A DNA stretch of 39,392 bases from Desulfurellaceae bacterium. Lineage in GTDB: Bacteria; Desulfobacterota; Binatia; Bin18. Shown one piece after another: positions 15,660 through 34,861 of this stretch. The stretch covers positions 1 to 39,392 of the forward strand of contig JAGWBB010000013.1 of NCBI GenBank assembly GCA_021296095.1, written 5' to 3'. A model generated the notes under the pieces. It had not been told where the DNA came from and did no database searches. It was given only the letters and a program-made list of their open reading frames with translations. The position numbers and the translations under genes are program-made. Position 1 is the first letter of the stretch. The number at the start of each line of letters is the position of its first letter.

Positions 15660-15926
15660 ATGGCAGGACGGGATTCGCTGGAGAAGATGATTGCCAAGAT
15701 CTTGCACCGTCACTGCGAGTTTGGTTGGGCCCACTACTACATTCCGAGCGAAAAATTTCCAAACCTGGTGGACGAGTTACTCAAAGTGCTGCAACCGGCG
15801 GAGGAGGCGGGGGAGGATGAGTTAGTCAAGCTTTTTCTCGGTCTGAAACGCTATTCTTCCGAGCAAGAACGGGTCGATCAACTCTTGACGGCATACCGGG
15901 TGCTGAAACGTGAGGAACCACGCTGA
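15660..15926 (+). CDS. Small conserved-looking protein of unknown function
   Basis: 88 residues from the ATG at 15660, which has GGAGGA about eight bases upstream. The frame is open further upstream but without a comparable binding site. The product is acidic to neutral and mainly helical in appearance, with HRHCEFGWAHYYIPS near the N-terminus (aromatic and His-rich), an acidic stretch around EEAGEDE and a basic C-terminus. No known domain is recognised. It is on the same strand as the two glycosyltransferases and 113 bp ahead of them, so co-transcription is possible. No signal peptide or membrane segment is seen. Confidence 0.65.
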   Translation: MAGRDSLEKMIAKILHRHCEFGWAHYYIPSEKFPNLVDELLKVLQPAEEAGEDELVKLFLGLKRYSSEQERVDQLLTAYRVLKREEPR

Positions 15927-16039: not shown

Positions 16040-17776
16040 ATGCCTGAGACACGGCGCACCAGACGCACGGTCGGCGGCCTGCTGCTGCTGTGTTTCCTGC
16101 TCTATTTCTGGGAACTTGGTCGGATCCCGTTCTATAATTACGAAGAGTCGAAAGAAGCGCTGATCGTCTGGGAGATCGTCAACGACGGCGGCTGGATTCT
16201 GCCCCGGCGCAACGGCACCGAGATGCCGCTCAAGCCGCCACTGTTCCACTGGATCGGGGCCGGTATCTCACTGCTTGGCGGTCAGGTCAGCGAGTTCGCC
16301 GTGCGGGCGCCCTCGGCTTTTGCCGCCACTGCTGCGGTGGTGTTGACGTTCTTCTGCGGCCAAGCCTGGTGGAGCTGGCGGGTGGGGCTGTTTGCCGCGC
16401 TGATTCTGGTCACCTCGCCGGAGTGGGCACGCTGGGCTATTCACGCCCGGAGCGACATGCTGCTGGTCTTTTTCATGACCGCAGCCATGCTGAGCTTTTT
16501 CCAGCTGTGGCAGGAACGCGCCAGCCGGCGCAGCCTTGTGTACGTGTTCTATGCGAGTCTGGGGCTGGCGATCCTGGCCAAAGGGCCGCTGGGTTTCCTG
16601 CTGCCGGTCCTGGTCATTGTCGCTTTTCTGGCCGAGCGCCGCGACCTCCAGTTCATCTGGCAGATGAAGCTGGTGGGCGGCTCGCTGGTCATGGTTGTGA
16701 TTGCGGCGTCGTGGTATGTGCTGGCCACGGCCCAGGGCGGCGGCGAGTTTGTCTCGCGCCAAATTCTGGACGAGAATGTCTTTCGCTTTTTTGCCAGCGA
16801 GCAGGGCGGGCCGAGTCGGGATCACTCTTTTTACTACTATGTGCCAACCTTATGCGCCGGCATGCTCCCCTGGAGCCTGTTCTTTCCGGCCCTGATCTAC
16901 GTCCTGTACCGCTCCCACGGTCGGGGCGACGCCAAGTCTCGCTATTTGATGATCTGGTGTGGGGTTGAACTCCTGTTTTTCAGTCTGGCGTCCGGCAAGC
17001 GCAGCAATTACATCCTGCCCGTGTATCCGGCGCTGGCCCTCTTGCTGGGAGTGTGGTGGCAGGAGTTGATGGATCGGGCCGCCGCCTTCTCGCCCGCCGT
17101 GTTACGTCTCAGCAAAGCCTCGGCCGTGCTGCTGGGCGGCGGATTTGCGGTCATTGTCGTGAGTCTGCTGGCCCACGGATCCGGGGTCGATCTGGCCCAT
17201 CTCGTCTCTCCGTTTTTGCATCCCCGCGATCAGGCCAACCTGCCCCTGGTTGCCCACGGCCTCCAGAGCCATTTCCCGGTCGTCATGGCCTGGCTGGCCA
17301 TCCTGGCGTCTGCGCTCGGCTGGTATTTTGTGGGCTTTAAGCGGGAGCAATGGATGTGGGTGTTCGCCGCCCTGACTGTCCTCATGTCCTCCTCCCTGTA
17401 TTTCACCAACGCGCTCTTCCATCCTATTTTGGCCAAAGAGCGGACCTATAAACCGTTCATGCTGGGGGCTCGCTCAACCGTGCAGGACGCACCGCTGTAC
17501 TTCTATCAGAACGCCTACGACTACGGCGCGAACTTTTATGCCGACCGGCGTATTCCGTCCTACACCCAGGACTTGACCCAGCTGGCGACGAACCACGCCT
17601 CACAGCTGTATCTGCTCATGCGCGAGGAGGACTGGCAGCGCCTGCCGCCAACAGAATCGTCCCGCCTGGAGCATCTGGTCACCAGCCACGGGCGGGGACC
17701 GGATAAAAAGCATCGCCTGGCTCTGGTTGCCCTGTTGCCGACACCAGCCGACCCGCCGTCCGCCTCGGCGGACTGA
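16040..17776 (+). CDS. ArnT/PMT-type membrane glycosyltransferase (GT-C fold), paralogue 1
   Basis: 578-residue integral membrane protein of the dolichyl-phosphate-mannose mannosyltransferase/ArnT superfamily. These enzymes transfer a sugar from a polyprenyl-phosphate carrier to lipid A, protein or glycan on the periplasmic side. About 12 hydrophobic segments are visible. The first periplasmic loop has the acidic pair Glu35-Glu36, in the place of the catalytic Asp-Glu of ArnT. The NG..MPLKPPLFHW motif follows, equivalent to FEKPP in ArnT. GAGGTG supports the ATG. The donor and acceptor cannot be read from sequence. The next gene is a close paralogue starting 12 bp later, and the pair probably arose by tandem duplication. 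Confidence 0.87.
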   Translation: MPETRRTRRTVGGLLLLCFLLYFWELGRIPFYNYEESKEALIVWEIVNDGGWILPRRNGTEMPLKPPLFHWIGAGISLLGGQVSEFAVRAPSAFAATAAVVLTFFCGQAWWSWRVGLFAALILVTSPEWARWAIHARSDMLLVFFMTAAMLSFFQLWQERASRRSLVYVFYASLGLAILAKGPLGFLLPVLVIVAFLAERRDLQFIWQMKLVGGSLVMVVIAASWYVLATAQGGGEFVSRQILDENVFRFFASEQGGPSRDHSFYYYVPTLCAGMLPWSLFFPALIYVLYRSHGRGDAKSRYLMIWCGVELLFFSLASGKRSNYILPVYPALALLLGVWWQELMDRAAAFSPAVLRLSKASAVLLGGGFAVIVVSLLAHGSGVDLAHLVSPFLHPRDQANLPLVAHGLQSHFPVVMAWLAILASALGWYFVGFKREQWMWVFAALTVLMSSSLYFTNALFHPILAKERTYKPFMLGARSTVQDAPLYFYQNAYDYGANFYADRRIPSYTQDLTQLATNHASQLYLLMREEDWQRLPPTESSRLEHLVTSHGRGPDKKHRLALVALLPTPADPPSASAD

Positions 17777-17788
17777 GAATCCAGGTCC

Positions 17789-19564
17789 GTGCGCCCGCTG
17801 CCCGCCGCTCTCGGCCTCGCCTGCCTGTGCCTCAGCCTGTACGTCTGGGGGCTGGGCGACCTGCCTTTCTACACCAAGGGCCAGCCCCGGGAAGCCACCG
17901 TGGTGTGGGAGATCACGACCCACGGGGAATGGATCCTGCCCCTGCGCAACGGTCATATCATCCCCTCAAAACCGCCGCTCTTTCACTGGCTCGGCGCGCT
18001 GGCGAGCCATCTCGGGGGAGAGCCGAACGAGCTGACGATTCGCCTCCCGTCGGCCCTGCTAGCGGTGCTGGGCGTGTTGCTGACGTATTACACTGGAGTA
18101 GCCCTGTGGGGGGTCGAGGCCGGACTGCTGGCCGGGATTATTCTAGCCACCAGCTTTGAATGGTTCCGGGCCGCGACTACGGCACGGGTCGATATGACCC
18201 TGAGCTTCTTCATGGTGGCAGCGGTGTTGAGCTTTTGGTCAGGCTACCGCAACGGGCGTTTCTCCTGGACCCATGTACTCGGCTTCTACGGCCTGGCCGG
18301 CCTGGCCAGCCTGGCCAAAGGGCCGGTCGGCGGCGTGTTGCCGGGGTTGATCGTCTGCGTGTTTTTGCTGCTGCGCCGGGACATCGGCTTCCTGCGCCGC
18401 ATACACCTGCTCAGCGGCGGGCTGCTGTACCTGGGTGTGGCCGGCTCATGGTATGGGCTGGCACTGTGGCAGGGCGGTGAGGCGTTTTTTGAAAAGCAGA
18501 TTCTGAAAGAGAACGTCCTGCGTTTTCTTTCCAGCGGGGCGGCCGGTGCCGGACACGAGCATCCCTTCTACTACTTTCTTCCCAACCTGTTCATGGGCAT
18601 GGCGCCGTGGAGTTTTTTCTTGCCGCCGCTGGTCTATTTTCTCTACCGCTCGCGCGAGCGCTGGGTCCAGCACCAGTTCCTGTTCCCGCTTGTCTGGTTT
18701 ACGACCGTGTTTGTGTTCTACTCAGCTTCGAGCAGCAAACGCAGCGTGTATATCCTGCCCCTGTATCCGGCCGCGGCTCTGTTGCTCGGAGCCTGGTGGC
18801 AGGCGCTACGCCGGGGTGAGGTCGAGCTGCCGCGCGGATTCGAGCGACTTATCCAGGCGGCCGGCTATGTCAGTGCCGGTGTCATCCTCATCGCGGTGGC
18901 CGGGGTGCTGGCTGAAGCCGGCGGCCTGGACCCATTTGCCCTGATTCGTCCCCTGCTACACCCCAAGGACAGGAGTAACCTGCCGCTGTTCAGCGGAGTT
19001 GTCGCCTCCCATCCCCTGGCCTTCGGCGCATGGCTGCTGGGCGTCAGCGGAGCAATGCTCTGGCTGGTCGTGGGTTTGCGCCGCCGCGCCTGGAAGGCCG
19101 TGTTCGGAGCGCTGGCGGTCTTCACGACCAGCCTGTTCCTGCTCGTCAACCACGTCATTCAGCCGACGATTGCCGCCGCCCGGACCTACCGGCCGTTCAT
19201 GCAGCGGGTTGTTTCACAGATCGGCCCACGGCCGCTGTTCTTCTATCGCTGCTTTGACAGCGGAGCGCTGTTCTATGCCGACCGGCGCATCCCGTTCTAC
19301 GCACCCGCGACGACCCCGACCGAACCGTACTACGTCCTGGCCTGGGAGAAAGAATGGGAGCGCCTGGGCCAGCTTGACCGACAGGACGAGAGGCTGGCAA
19401 TCAGCCCGGACGAGGTTGCCCCGCAGGTGCGACTGCGCGACATCAGCCGGGGCACCGGGCCAAAGGGCAGGAAGCGCCTGACCCTGCTTGAGGTGTCGGC
19501 CGCTCACGTCCTGCCGGCCTGGACGGACGACGAGCAGGGACGGATCAAGCGCGACGCCATGTGA
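17789..19564 (+). CDS. ArnT/PMT-type membrane glycosyltransferase, paralogue 2 with altered acidic loop
   Basis: 591 residues from a GTG start, clearly paralogous to the previous gene along its whole length (shared WEI..GEWILP-type loop, KPPLFHWLGA, LAKGPVGG, and a C-terminal YADRRIPFY region). About 12 membrane segments are visible. Aligning the first loops puts Gly31-Gln32 where paralogue 1 has Glu-Glu and ArnT has Asp-Glu. These acids are needed for catalysis in studied GT-C enzymes, so this copy may be inactive, use another residue or act as a partner subunit. The frame is intact and codon use looks like its neighbour, so it is not an obvious pseudogene. Confidence 0.85.
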   Translation: MRPLPAALGLACLCLSLYVWGLGDLPFYTKGQPREATVVWEITTHGEWILPLRNGHIIPSKPPLFHWLGALASHLGGEPNELTIRLPSALLAVLGVLLTYYTGVALWGVEAGLLAGIILATSFEWFRAATTARVDMTLSFFMVAAVLSFWSGYRNGRFSWTHVLGFYGLAGLASLAKGPVGGVLPGLIVCVFLLLRRDIGFLRRIHLLSGGLLYLGVAGSWYGLALWQGGEAFFEKQILKENVLRFLSSGAAGAGHEHPFYYFLPNLFMGMAPWSFFLPPLVYFLYRSRERWVQHQFLFPLVWFTTVFVFYSASSSKRSVYILPLYPAAALLLGAWWQALRRGEVELPRGFERLIQAAGYVSAGVILIAVAGVLAEAGGLDPFALIRPLLHPKDRSNLPLFSGVVASHPLAFGAWLLGVSGAMLWLVVGLRRRAWKAVFGALAVFTTSLFLLVNHVIQPTIAAARTYRPFMQRVVSQIGPRPLFFYRCFDSGALFYADRRIPFYAPATTPTEPYYVLAWEKEWERLGQLDRQDERLAISPDEVAPQVRLRDISRGTGPKGRKRLTLLEVSAAHVLPAWTDDEQGRIKRDAM

Positions 19565-29178: not shown

Positions 29179-32100
29179 TCAGGCGTTACTCCCCTGCATA
29201 TACTCCCGCAGGCAGCGGGCGGTGTACGACTGCCGGCTCTGGCGCATGACATCCTGGGGCGGGCCGCAGGCCACCACCCGGCCCCCCTCCAGGCCACCCT
29301 CTGGGCCGAGATCAACAATGTAGTCGGCCTCTTTAATGATATCGAGGTTATGCTCGATGGTGACGACCGTATTGCCCTTGTCCACCAGACGGTGCAGGGT
29401 CGCGATCAGCTTCTCAATATCGGCGAAGTGCAGCCCCGTGGTGGGCTCGTCCAGGACGTACAGGGTCTTGCCCCGGGACTCCTTGGCCAGCTCGTAGGCC
29501 AATTTAATGCGCTGGGCCTCACCGCCGGACAGGGTGTTGCTGGCCTGGCCCAGGGTGATATAGCCCATGCCGATATCGTTCAGCAGGCGCAGCGGGCGGG
29601 CGATCTTTGGCACCCCCAGAAAAAACGTGGCCGCCTCCTCAATGGTCAGGCCTAGAACATCGGCGATATTCTTGCCGTTATAGGCGATCTCCAGCGTCTC
29701 CTCGTTATAGCGCCGCCCGCCACACACCTCGCAGTCCACATACACATCGGGCAGAAAGCTCATCTCCATCTTCAGCCGCCCCTGGCCGGCGCAGGCCTCA
29801 CACCGCCCGCCCTTGACGTTGAACGAAAACCGCCCCGGCTTATAGCCCCGCAGACGCGACTCGGGCAGCATCGAGAACAGCTTGCGGACCTCGTCCCACA
29901 GCCCGACATACGAGGCCGGCACGGAGCGCGGCGTTTTTCCGATCGGCGTCTGATCCACCTCAACCACCCGCTCGATGGGCTCAGCCCCCTCAATCCGATC
30001 ATGCACACCCGTCTTGCCAACAAAGCGACCCAGCTGTTTTCTGAGACCCTTGACCAGCACTTCCTGGACCAGCGAGCTTTTGCCCGAGCCCGACACGCCC
30101 GTCAGACACACCCAGGTGCCGATCGGCAGCTCGACGTCGATATTCTTCAGGTTGTGCTCGCGCGCGCCGCGAATGGACAGCCGCGGCCGGCCATCCAGCG
30201 AGCGGACCGGACCGAGCCGGGGGTGGGCGACGTGCAAAAACTGTCCGGTCAGCGACTCGGGGTTGTGGCGCAAGTCGCCCGGAGCGCCGATTGCCACCAC
30301 TTTGCCGCCGTGCGTACCTGCCCCCGGTCCGAGGTCGATCACCACATCGGCACTGGCAATCGTCTGCTCGTCGTGCTCGACCACCAGCACGGTATTGCCC
30401 CGTTCCTGGAGGCCGCGCAGGGTCGTCAGCAGGCGGGCGTTGTCGCGCGGATGGAGACCGATGGTGGGCTCATCCAGGATGTAGCACACCCCGCGCAGAT
30501 TCGAGCCGAGCTGGGCGGCCAGACGAATGCGCTGGGCCTCACCGCCGGACAGGGTATCGGCACGGCGATCCAGGGCCAGGTAGGACAGGCCGACCTCCAT
30601 CAGGAAGGACAGACGCGGGACGATCTCTTTGAGGATCGGCTCGCCAATCAGCCGCTCCCGACCGCTCAGGGACAGCTCGGACATATGCCGCAGGCAGTCG
30701 GCAACCGACATCTGCATCAGCTGCCAGATGGTCTTGTCCTCGATCTGAACCGCCCGGGCCCGGGCGTTGAGCCGGGCGCCGTCGCAGCTCGGGCACGGCG
30801 CCTGACTCAGAAACTGCGACAGAGACAGGCCCGCCCCCTTCTCGTCGCCCTCGGCCAGAGCCTTGTCCAGGATATCGACCACGCCCCGCAGCCCCTTGTC
30901 ATTGCCGTGAAAGACGAGCCGGCGCTGTCTGGCGGTCAGCTGGCCGAAGGGTTTATCGAGCGGAACGCGGTGTTTTTTCAGGCCGCGCAGCAGGCGCGCC
31001 TGCTCCCGCTTCAGGCCGGCTTCAGTCAGCGGCAGGAGGGCGTCCTGGCGCAGGGATTTGTCCGGGTCGGGGACCAGCAGCTGGGGGTCGAATTCCCATC
31101 GAAACCCCTGGCCGCTGCACTCGGGACACGCCCCCTGGCGGCTGTTGAACGAAAACATCCGCGGGTCAAGCTCGGCATAGCCCAGGCCGCACGCCACACA
31201 GAACAATTTTTCGCTGTAGATACGCTCTGTCTCGGCGCCCAGGATGTGGACCGCGCCATTGCCCATCCGCAGCGCGTCCTGGAGCAGGCCGTCAAGCTGC
31301 TGGCTCGTCCGGTCAACCGTGACCTGCCCGACCACGATCTCAATATCGTGCTCCTTAAAGCGGGCCAAGCTCATGTCCGGCGTAATTTCGACGATCCGGC
31401 CGTCAATGCGCGCCCGGATGAAACCCAGCTTGCGCGCGCCGGCCAGCACGTCTTTATGAAACCCCTTGCGGCCGCGCACGACCGGAGCCAGGACGCTGAA
31501 CTCCTGGTCGCTGAAGTCGGTTTGCACCAGCCCAAGAATGCGGCTGCGGCTCTGAGCCGACAGCGGCTGGCCGCAGGTCACACAGTGCTGCACGCCGATC
31601 TTGGCGTATAACAGCCGCAGATAGTGCGAGACTTCGGTCACCGTGGCCACCGTCGAGTTCCGCCCGCCCCGGCTCATGCGCTGTTCAATGGCGACCGTCG
31701 GCGGAATACCCGTCAACAGATCGACATTCGGTTTGGCCAGGACCTTGATGAACTGGCGGGAATAGGCCGACAGGCTGTCAATATAGCGGCGCTGGCCCTC
31801 GGCATACACAATGTCAAACACCAGCGTGGACTTGCCCGACCCGGACAGCCCGGTGACCACGATCATCTCATCCCGAGGAATATCGAGAGAGACATCCTGC
31901 AGATTATGCTCCTTGGCGCCCACCACACAGATCGCCGTATTGGCGCTTGCGGATTTCTTTGGTTTTAATCTTTGCCCTTTACCCTTTGCCTTTTGCCTTT
32001 TGCCTTTTGCCTTGTCTCCCCGCTTCGCCTCTCGCAACACCCGCGCCAGATAGCGCCCGGTATGCGAGCGCCTGACCCGCGCCACCGCCTCCGGCGTCCC

Positions 32101-34836
32101 CTGGGCCACCACCTCGCCGCCCCCGTCGCCGCCCTCCGGACCGAGGTCGATGACCTGATCGGCGCACTTGATCACATCCAGATTATGTTCGACGATGAGG
32201 ACCGAGTGGCCCCGCTCGACCAGGCTGTCGAAGGCTGTCAGCAGCTTCTGGATATCGGCGAAATGCAGACCCGTCGTAGGCTCGTCAAAGATAAACAGGG
32301 TCTTGCCCGGCCGGTCGGTGTGGGTCTTTTCACGGCCGATATGGGCGGCCAGCTTCAGACGCTGGGCTTCGCCGCCGGACAGAGTCGTCAGGGACTGGCC
32401 CAGGCGGACGTAGTCCAGACCGACGGCCGCCAGCGAAGACAGGCGTCGCTGCAACTCGGCCTTGCCGGCAAAGAACGCCAAAGCCTCGCTGACCGTCATG
32501 GCCATGATGTCGGTCAGGTTCTTGCCCTGATAGCGGACCTCCAAGACCTCGGCACGAAAGCGCCGCCCCTGGCACTCGGGACACGGCACGTAGACATCGG
32601 ACAGGAACTGCATCTCGACCTTTTCAAAACCCTCGCCCTTACACGTCTCGCACCGGCCGCCCTCGACATTGAAGGAAAAGGTGCCGGTCGTGTAGCCGCG
32701 CAGCCTGGCCAGCTCGGTGTCGGCCAGCAGCCGCCGCAGCGAATCGAAGGCCCGCGTGTAGGTCAGCAGATTGGCCCGCGGCGTTGTCCCGATCTGGCTC
32801 TGATTGACGAAAATCACATCGGCCAGGTGCTCGGTGCCGACAATGTCCTGGCACGGGCCGGGAATGCCGACCGACTCGCCCCAGCGCTTTTTCAGCCCCC
32901 GGTACAGCACGTCTTCAATCAGGGTGGACTTGCCCGAGCCCGACACCCCGGTCAGACACACCATGCAGCCCAGCGGAATCTCGACATCGATGTGCTTCAG
33001 ATTATGCGCGCTGGCCTTGAGGAGGGTCAGCGTGTGGCCGGGCTGGGCCGCCCGGCGCTGGGCCGGCAGCGGGATGCGCTGACGCTGGGACAGATACTGG
33101 CCGGTCAGCGAGTGCGGGTCGGCCAGGATATCTTCATACGGACCGGAGAAGACGAGCTGGCCGCCCTGCTCGCCGGCCAGCGGCCCCAGGTCGAGGATAT
33201 GATCGGCCTCCTTGATGATCTCCGGGTCGTGCTCGACCACCACCACCGTGTTGCCGTTGTCGCGCAGGTTTTGCAGGATGCGGACCAGTCGGTTGCTGTC
33301 GCGCGGGTGCAGGCCGATTGAGGGCTCGTCCAGAATATACAAGGTGTTGACCAGGGCCGAGCCCAGGGCGGTGGTCAGATCGACCCGCTCCAGCTCCCCG
33401 CCGGACAGGGTCCGGGACTGCCGGTCCAGGGTCAGGTATTCAACGCCGACCTCGACCAGATAGCGCAGCCGCTTACGGATCTCGTCCAGGATGAGCTGGG
33501 CGACCTGATCCTGAAAGGCCGACAGCTGCAAGCCCTCAAAGAACGCCGAGCACACGCCCACACTCAGCAGGTTGATCTCGGCCAGGGTCTTGCCCCCGAC
33601 CCGGTACAGCAGGGACTCGGGTTTGAGGCGGGCGCCATGACACGCGTCGCACGAGAAATAGCCCCGGTAGCGGGCCAGGAATACCCGGACGTGCATCTTA
33701 TAGGTCTTGGTCTCCAACCACTGAAACCAGCCCCGCACCCCGTAATACTCGCCGTCGCCGTCCAGAATCAGCCCCTGCTGCTCGGCGCTGAGGTCTCGCC
33801 ACGGGACGCTGGTCGCAATACCCCGCTGTTTGCAGAACGCAAACAGCTCGCGCCGCTCCCACTGGGCGGCTTTAATCCGCCACGGTTTGACGGCGCCGTC
33901 CTTGAGCGACAGACCGGGGTCGGGGACGACCAGCTCCAGGTCAAGATCGATCGTGCGGCCAAAGCCCTTGCACTTCTCGCACGCGCCCAGCGGGCTGTTG
34001 AACGAGAACAGGTTGGGGACCGGCTCCTTGTACACGATCTGACACGCCGCGCACTCCAGCCGGTTGGAAAAGGCCTGCTCGGCCTGCTCGGCGTCGGGAA
34101 AGACGAGGCTCAGCCGCCCCTTGCCGTACTGAAACGCCTGCTCCAGGGAATCGTGGGTGCGTTTTTTGTGGCGCGGGCCGACGCGCAGGCGATCCACCAC
34201 CACGCTGCACTGTTCCTGACCGACCAGGCCCTCGGGCCGGGCGTCCAACTCCTGGATGTCAACAAGCGTGCCGGCCACCAGCAGACGGAAGAAGCCGGCC
34301 CGGACCAGACCGTCCCGGATGTCGCTCCAGGCCAGGCTGTCCGGGACGGCGACACTGAAAGTGACATAGAACCGCGTGCCCTCGGGCTGCTGCTCGGACA
34401 GCTTTCTGAACACCGACTCGGCCGAGTCGCGCTCGACCGGCTGGCCGCACTGGCGACACGACAAGACCCCGATCTTGGCAAACAAGAGCTTGAGGTGGTC
34501 GTGCAGCTCGGTCATCGTGCCGACGGTCGAACGCGAGGTGCGGACCGGGCGGTTCTGGTCAATGGCGATGGCCGGCAGGATGCCCTCAATTTTGTCAACC
34601 TGGGGCTTATCCATACGGTCCAGGAATTGACGGGCGTAGGCCGAAAAGCTCTCGACATAGCGGCGTTGGCCCTCGGCGTACAAGATGTCGAAGGCCAGGC
34701 TCGACTTGCCCGAGCCGCTCACCCCGGTGACGACCGTCAGCTGGTTCAGGGGAATGTCGATGTCCAGGTTTTTGAGATTGTTCTGGCGCGCGCCGCTGAT
34801 GGCAATGCTGCTGCGACGGATCCCGTTAGTCTTCAC
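29179..34836 (-). CDS. uvrA: Double-length excinuclease ABC subunit UvrA (tandem UvrA-UvrA)
   Basis: Damage-recognition ATPase of nucleotide excision repair, about 1885 residues, twice the usual 940. Each half is a full UvrA. There are four Walker A loops (G[VL]SGSGKS near 38, 629, 997 and 1582) and four signatures (LSGGELERV near 478, LSGGEAQR near 820, 1430 and 1772). There are four DEP Walker B motifs and both zinc modules in each half (for example CAAC with CEKC, and CETC with CPEC). A Lys/Gly-rich linker (about 934-959) joins the halves and is encoded by 7-bp repeats. The GTG at 34836 has GGGAGGTG upstream and is preferred over a TTG at 34851. Double UvrA proteins are known, for example in Chlamydia. 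All motifs are intact. Confidence 0.95.
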   Translation of the reverse strand: MKTNGIRRSSIAISGARQNNLKNLDIDIPLNQLTVVTGVSGSGKSSLAFDILYAEGQRRYVESFSAYARQFLDRMDKPQVDKIEGILPAIAIDQNRPVRTSRSTVGTMTELHDHLKLLFAKIGVLSCRQCGQPVERDSAESVFRKLSEQQPEGTRFYVTFSVAVPDSLAWSDIRDGLVRAGFFRLLVAGTLVDIQELDARPEGLVGQEQCSVVVDRLRVGPRHKKRTHDSLEQAFQYGKGRLSLVFPDAEQAEQAFSNRLECAACQIVYKEPVPNLFSFNSPLGACEKCKGFGRTIDLDLELVVPDPGLSLKDGAVKPWRIKAAQWERRELFAFCKQRGIATSVPWRDLSAEQQGLILDGDGEYYGVRGWFQWLETKTYKMHVRVFLARYRGYFSCDACHGARLKPESLLYRVGGKTLAEINLLSVGVCSAFFEGLQLSAFQDQVAQLILDEIRKRLRYLVEVGVEYLTLDRQSRTLSGGELERVDLTTALGSALVNTLYILDEPSIGLHPRDSNRLVRILQNLRDNGNTVVVVEHDPEIIKEADHILDLGPLAGEQGGQLVFSGPYEDILADPHSLTGQYLSQRQRIPLPAQRRAAQPGHTLTLLKASAHNLKHIDVEIPLGCMVCLTGVSGSGKSTLIEDVLYRGLKKRWGESVGIPGPCQDIVGTEHLADVIFVNQSQIGTTPRANLLTYTRAFDSLRRLLADTELARLRGYTTGTFSFNVEGGRCETCKGEGFEKVEMQFLSDVYVPCPECQGRRFRAEVLEVRYQGKNLTDIMAMTVSEALAFFAGKAELQRRLSSLAAVGLDYVRLGQSLTTLSGGEAQRLKLAAHIGREKTHTDRPGKTLFIFDEPTTGLHFADIQKLLTAFDSLVERGHSVLIVEHNLDVIKCADQVIDLGPEGGDGGGEVVAQGTPEAVARVRRSHTGRYLARVLREAKRGDKAKGKRQKAKGKGQRLKPKKSASANTAICVVGAKEHNLQDVSLDIPRDEMIVVTGLSGSGKSTLVFDIVYAEGQRRYIDSLSAYSRQFIKVLAKPNVDLLTGIPPTVAIEQRMSRGGRNSTVATVTEVSHYLRLLYAKIGVQHCVTCGQPLSAQSRSRILGLVQTDFSDQEFSVLAPVVRGRKGFHKDVLAGARKLGFIRARIDGRIVEITPDMSLARFKEHDIEIVVGQVTVDRTSQQLDGLLQDALRMGNGAVHILGAETERIYSEKLFCVACGLGYAELDPRMFSFNSRQGACPECSGQGFRWEFDPQLLVPDPDKSLRQDALLPLTEAGLKREQARLLRGLKKHRVPLDKPFGQLTARQRRLVFHGNDKGLRGVVDILDKALAEGDEKGAGLSLSQFLSQAPCPSCDGARLNARARAVQIEDKTIWQLMQMSVADCLRHMSELSLSGRERLIGEPILKEIVPRLSFLMEVGLSYLALDRRADTLSGGEAQRIRLAAQLGSNLRGVCYILDEPTIGLHPRDNARLLTTLRGLQERGNTVLVVEHDEQTIASADVVIDLGPGAGTHGGKVVAIGAPGDLRHNPESLTGQFLHVAHPRLGPVRSLDGRPRLSIRGAREHNLKNIDVELPIGTWVCLTGVSGSGKSSLVQEVLVKGLRKQLGRFVGKTGVHDRIEGAEPIERVVEVDQTPIGKTPRSVPASYVGLWDEVRKLFSMLPESRLRGYKPGRFSFNVKGGRCEACAGQGRLKMEMSFLPDVYVDCEVCGGRRYNEETLEIAYNGKNIADVLGLTIEEAATFFLGVPKIARPLRLLNDIGMGYITLGQASNTLSGGEAQRIKLAYELAKESRGKTLYVLDEPTTGLHFADIEKLIATLHRLVDKGNTVVTIEHNLDIIKEADYIVDLGPEGGLEGGRVVACGPPQDVMRQSRQSYTARCLREYMQGSNA
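31971..32012. repeat. Heptanucleotide tandem repeat inside uvrA
   Basis: Six 7-bp units: TTTGCCC, TTTACCC, then four perfect TTTGCCT (31985-32012). On the coding strand this is AGGCAAA repeated. The 42 bp code for 14 residues of a Lys/Gly/Gln/Ala/Arg linker between the UvrA halves. Because 7 is not a multiple of 3, a change of one unit would shift the reading frame. The array has no stop in any of the six frames. Confidence 0.93.
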
Positions 34837-34861
34837 CCCCACCTCCCACAAAGAAGTGCTC

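Follow-up and report, generated by a model that had tools for sequence, protein, structure and literature searches.

A fixed glutamate-to-glutamine change at the EL1 acid of one member of a tandem pair of ArnT-like GT-C glycosyltransferases in Candidatus Binatota

An Asp at the JM1 tip has been stated to be essential in all GT-CA enzymes, and the AftB variant D62A is inactive (PMC12041299). Inactivity has also been described for the D74N and D74A variants of MtPMT (PMC12331936), and in CeDPY19, a tryptophan C-mannosyltransferase in which a single Glu is the proposed base, activity was abolished by the exchange E71Q (PMC10154233). For S. coelicolor PMT, as cited in PMC12331936, replacement of the equivalent Asp by Asn was reported to be without effect, so an amide at this place is not always fatal. 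For the retaining enzyme AftB it has been proposed that the donor phosphate deprotonates the acceptor (PMC12041299). In ArnT, the lipid A L-Ara4N transferase (CAZy GT83, structures 5ezm and 5f15), for which undecaprenyl-phosphate-L-Ara4N serves as donor, essential Tyr and Lys residues have been described for the motifs RYA and YFEKP (PMC5377068), and the D-E pair of CmArnT is numbered D55/E56 (PMC7801869). Paralogous GT-C enzymes acting together are known from the PMTs (GT39), where yeast Pmt1-Pmt2 functions as a heterodimer in which each subunit has a pocket of its own, with transfer reportedly catalysed there by an invariant DE motif (PMC12705809). Pairs of an enzyme with a dead paralogue, with proven activation, are described for trypanosome deoxyhypusine synthase and AdoMet decarboxylase and their prozymes (PMC3663545, PMC5201418). 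Our literature search found no paper with an earlier annotation of LPS genes or glycosyltransferases in Binatota.

Our analysis of a stretch of 39,392 nucleotides (the window) revealed two ArnT-like GT-C glycosyltransferase genes in tandem on the plus strand, A (16040..17776, 578 aa) and B (17789..19564, 591 aa, GTG start), both with intact frames and separated by 12 bp. As the preliminary description had it, the two proteins align along their full length, with 43% identity across 567 columns (BLASTP, 1e-139). Judged by their sequences the two are ArnT-like GT-C paralogues that arose by gene duplication, and both would be seated in the inner membrane. Both match the Pfam domains PMT and PMT_2, a likeness to PMTs such as Pmt1-Pmt2 and MtPMT, and neither gave a Pfam match to the MIR domain that is typical of eukaryotic PMTs. 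The tandem lies next to the LPS genes kdsA-pyrG-kdsB, and in most loci of the family it is found between mutY/kdsB/pyrG/kdsA and hppA. Among the 16 family genomes sampled the tandem is kept wherever both genes are visible (the sequence of G005 stops inside A and the contig of G008 ends just past B). Directly upstream of A on the plus strand is a small conserved ORF of about 90 aa (15660..15926, start codon uncertain), which has no Pfam or NCBIfam match and could belong to the operon as its third gene. It occurs at the same place with 69-100% identity in every family locus that reaches it, with counterparts so placed in L034-L047 and L084-L096, and it is mostly better conserved across the family than A and B. 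Elsewhere in the window, an ORF of 1,890 aa on the minus strand (29179-34851) contains the UvrA interaction and the UvrA DNA-binding domain twice each and represents two UvrA units fused into a single chain.

The EL1 motif reads YNYEESKEAL in A and YTKGQPREAT in B. Glu35-Glu36 of A (codons GAA GAG, 16142..16147) stands opposite Gly31 (17879..17881) and Gln32 (CAG, 17882..17884) of B, and both pairs fall on the D-E pair of CmArnT, with Gly31 at the D55 and Gln32 at the E56 position. This register had been proposed before; pairwise and profile alignments agree on it, and in the B motif it is anchored by R34 and A36. CmArnT (5ezm) is the only PDB relative of A and B that scores convincingly by sequence. 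The AF2 models (mean pLDDT 94.1 for A and 93.3 for B) predict a GT-C fold with a JM1-JM2 loop between TM1 and TM2 and a periplasmic C-terminal domain. In both, the EL1 motif marks the N-terminal end of the JM1 helix, which covers residues 34-49 of A and 31-45 of B. The best Foldseek matches of both models were ArnT, ALG12, OST and Pmt4, led in each case by ArnT 5f15 (TM 0.72/0.77 for A and 0.72/0.78 for B). An Asp at the JM1 tip, as in GT-CA enzymes, is found in neither protein, since A has an acid that is Glu and B has Gly31-Gln32, and B is assigned to GT-C by fold and homology and not by a JM1-tip acid. The second conserved acid, an Asp in EL2, is present in both (D139 in A; D135 in B, codon 18191..18193) and in 137 of 137 aligned homologues; its counterpart in MtPMT is D176, and in ArnT we take it to be D158.

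Likeness to ArnT thus extends over the full-length fold, the EL1 register, the KP motif, the EL2 Asp and the periplasmic C-terminal domain. The two proteins nevertheless score far below the cut-off of 567 of the ArnT equivalog NF009784 (NCBIfam), with 129.1 bits for A and 102.8 bits for B. They further differ from ArnT in having KEA or REA in place of RYA and PLKPP or PSKPP in place of YFEKP; the Lys is kept (K65 in A, K61 in B), whereas the Tyr is replaced by Glu (E39 in A, E35 in B), and D55-E56 corresponds to G-Q in B.

The preliminary description regarded B as a copy without the acid pair, and the homologues bear this out for one of the two residues. At the second motif position Glu was found in 127 of 137 aligned homologues; at the first, 90 of the 137 have Gly and just 26 an acid (Asp or Glu). 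The search patterns used had enriched this sample for members of the GE subfamily. Where position 35 is not Glu (23 aligned rows), Glu occupies the second motif position in every row, and Asp the first in 11. B belongs to a group that we define here as the GEPREA subfamily, characterized by G-E-P-R-E at JM1 and by 40 near-invariant columns, meaning columns at least 90% conserved among 79 subfamily members outside the family. It matches 39 of the 40, the sole exception being E32Q, and a tree built without the two motif columns (SH-aLRT, quick search) places it inside the subfamily. According to these alignments and the tree, Gly at the first position is the ancestral state, is found in most of the subfamily and is presumably compatible with activity. 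B has therefore lost one acid and not two, and descent from a DE ancestor by loss of both acids is rejected. The same tree unites the 14 full-length A sequences in one clade (support 100) within the GE subfamily, which makes E35 of A a derived gain of the first acid; all 15 A proteins deviate from the near-invariant columns at four places (G31E, R34K, V134S and H256R). Tandem pairs of divergent GT-C genes also recur in related bacteria, where a GEPREA-type gene stands beside an ArnT-like gene of DE, TE or GE type in 17 of 87 GE-type rows (loci L067, L068, L097, L106, L108, L111, L114, L117, L122, L124, L126, L127 and L135).

Gln at position 32 is fixed in nine of nine genomes of two sister genera of Candidatus Binatota (g1 and g2). 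On the tree the nine GQ rows group together as a clade (SH-aLRT 98) and require a single change from Glu to Gln, and on this phylogenetic reading Glu32 was lost from B in the common ancestor of the two genera. Outside the family, 78 of 79 subfamily members have Glu32. Of 148 class genomes, the nine of g1 and g2 are the only true carriers of KGQPRE, as opposed to 97 with KGEPRE. Four further matches to the Gln pattern in the class were due to chance and lie outside the motif of GT-C frames. Elsewhere in the sample the near-invariant Glu is missing only from a lone homologue at a contig end (L145:4306-5364), which has KGAPRE. Recurrence of Gly-Gln in orthologous pairs, which the preliminary description had suggested as a test, thus holds for these two genera, but the pairs of four other genera (g3, g4, g6 and g7) retain GE, which makes E32Q a property of one clade and not of the pair. 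That the change stems from an error of sequencing, assembly or alignment is next to impossible: the fragmented state of the window genome (185 contigs) is all that would speak for it, and it is refuted by the agreement of nine separately assembled genomes, two of them single contigs, in a register that both kinds of alignment share and that R34 and A36 fix.

All 15 B orthologues have open frames, and dN/dS within g1 and within g2 was 0.09-0.21 for B, compared to 0.11-0.21 for A (Nei-Gojobori, own script). The Gln32 codon is CAG in g1 and CAA in g2, and the B proteins of the two genera share about 65% identity. Taken together, dN/dS and the fixed Gln codons argue that B is neither decaying nor released from constraint; its maintenance by selection, as previously suggested, is thereby supported, and decay into a pseudogene, which had been named as a finding that would speak against it, is ruled out. 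Another possibility is that E32Q was mildly deleterious or neutral and drifted to fixation in the ancestor of the two genera, leaving B a slightly impaired ordinary enzyme. A single base change (GAR to CAR) with one origin would be in line with such a history, but no reversion is seen in nine genomes despite the divergence between g1 and g2, in which synonymous third positions have changed, and E32Q is essentially absent from relatives outside the clade. We therefore consider drift improbable.

Apart from position 32, the site appears intact. Out of 360 cells at the 40 near-invariant columns, the nine GQ proteins deviate in 10, nine of which are E32Q itself, so that 350 of 351 cells are kept at the other 39 columns, among them D135, K61, K177, K317 and R318; the six GE orthologues in the family show no deviation. 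No replacement acid was found in EL1 of the Gln clade and no clade-specific acid was gained near it, the sole clade-fixed gain being E568 in the periplasmic domain. Another acid pair that might substitute in the active site of B, which the preliminary description had likewise named as a possible objection, did not emerge, for E35 and D135 are common to the whole subfamily and thus are not compensations.

Glu32 of the subfamily would correspond to the base or ligand found at the JM1 tip of other GT-C enzymes. From the inactive mutants of these enzymes we infer that B in the Gln clade most likely no longer has ordinary transferase activity; the engineered E71Q of CeDPY19 is the same change that occurs naturally in B, in an enzyme of another family and with another acceptor, whose fold is weakly similar to that of B (Foldseek E 4.7e-3). 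Alternatively, B of the Gln clade could still be active, with the Gln32 amide orienting acceptor or donor, with Asp135, Glu35, a metal-bound water or the donor phosphate handling the proton, and possibly with a shifted specificity. The retention of every other near-invariant column agrees with this, and a still-active enzyme would also show constraint on its whole active site. The subfamily moreover already tolerates Gly at the textbook Asp (D55) position, the donor phosphate has been assigned such a role in AftB (PMC12041299), and the Asp to Asn exchange reported as tolerated in S. coelicolor PMT (as cited in PMC12331936) would be a precedent. On the other hand, Glu32 is otherwise almost never lost, the corresponding amide exchanges kill CeDPY19 (PMC10154233) and MtPMT (PMC12331936), and compensating acids near EL1 are missing. 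Continued activity through an altered mechanism is the strongest of the alternatives, although we would not expect it to be the true state.

Some indication of the donor comes from the remaining genome. It encodes one strong ArnC-like synthase, adjoining genes for UDP-glucose dehydrogenase (Ugd), UDP-glucuronate decarboxylase (UXS; 393 bits to the solved UDP-glucuronate decarboxylase 1) and a GalE-like 4-epimerase. The synthase is conserved through the family, with UXS and GalE beside it wherever the cluster is not truncated at the edge of a contig. From this set of genes the donor is probably an undecaprenyl-phosphate pentose. Exactly one ArnC-like synthase (E<=1e-30) was detected in each of the nine Gln genomes, as compared to two or three in each of the seven other family genomes, and in G015, a single contig, A and B are the only PMT_2 proteins. 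Fewer donor synthases in the Gln genomes would fit the loss of a donor accompanying a loss of catalysis in B, the two losses coinciding on one branch only and hence giving a single evolutionary contrast. In the sister lineage of B, the loci L095 and L097 encode an ArnC-like GT2 and a flippase-like protein, L097 also a sugar aminotransferase, a gene content in line with an Arn-like pathway. Other loci of g3 and g6 (L182, L188 and L052) contain ORFs of 671-691 aa with matches to a DegT-type sugar aminotransferase and an ArnC-like GT2 in one frame, probably a fused aminosugar/polyprenyl-phosphate synthase; an oxidoreductase-like ORF lies next to these, and in L188 and L052 GT-C genes do so too. 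A third ArnT-like paralogue of genome G000, with the motif MEGREA (L048:4032-7761, contig C16), follows genes for a 2-aminoethylphosphonate aminotransferase and a nucleotidyltransferase-like protein, hinting at a phosphonate-linked envelope modification.

The explanation we favour, at not quite even chances, has B as a copy that binds the donor, shows little ordinary transferase activity and is kept as a partner for A. In the Gln clade B would still bind a polyprenyl-phosphate sugar and might assist A either by complex formation or through the donor, which would come from the single ArnC-like synthase and be presented or gated by B, while A would be the catalytic member, modifying LPS or another envelope glycan. 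The tandem position of the two genes is in itself no evidence of a complex. A pair of one catalytic and one dead enzyme is plausible; it would differ from Pmt1-Pmt2, where both subunits carry the acid, in that one paralogue is without it. The trypanosome prozymes resemble B as retained duplicates minus catalytic residues, but belong to unrelated enzymes with proven activation, which for A and B is only hypothesized. More specifically, and more tentatively, B could be a natural GT-C pseudo-glycosyltransferase that binds a lipid-linked sugar without transferring it and serves as an obligate partner or regulator of A, the two having undergone complementary EL1 changes after duplication, with A gaining the first acid and B losing the second.

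GT-C enzymes have been described as requiring an acid at the JM1 tip. B exemplifies the Glu-to-Gln change as it occurs in nature, maintained by selection in a site that is otherwise intact, and it adjoins A, a paralogue with two acids. The pair opens for testing the questions of whether GT-C enzymes can function without this base and whether dead GT-C copies serve as partners in bacteria. Furthermore, many ArnT-like proteins conserve their EL1 acid at the second residue (the ArnT E56 position) and not at the Asp that has been emphasised in the literature.
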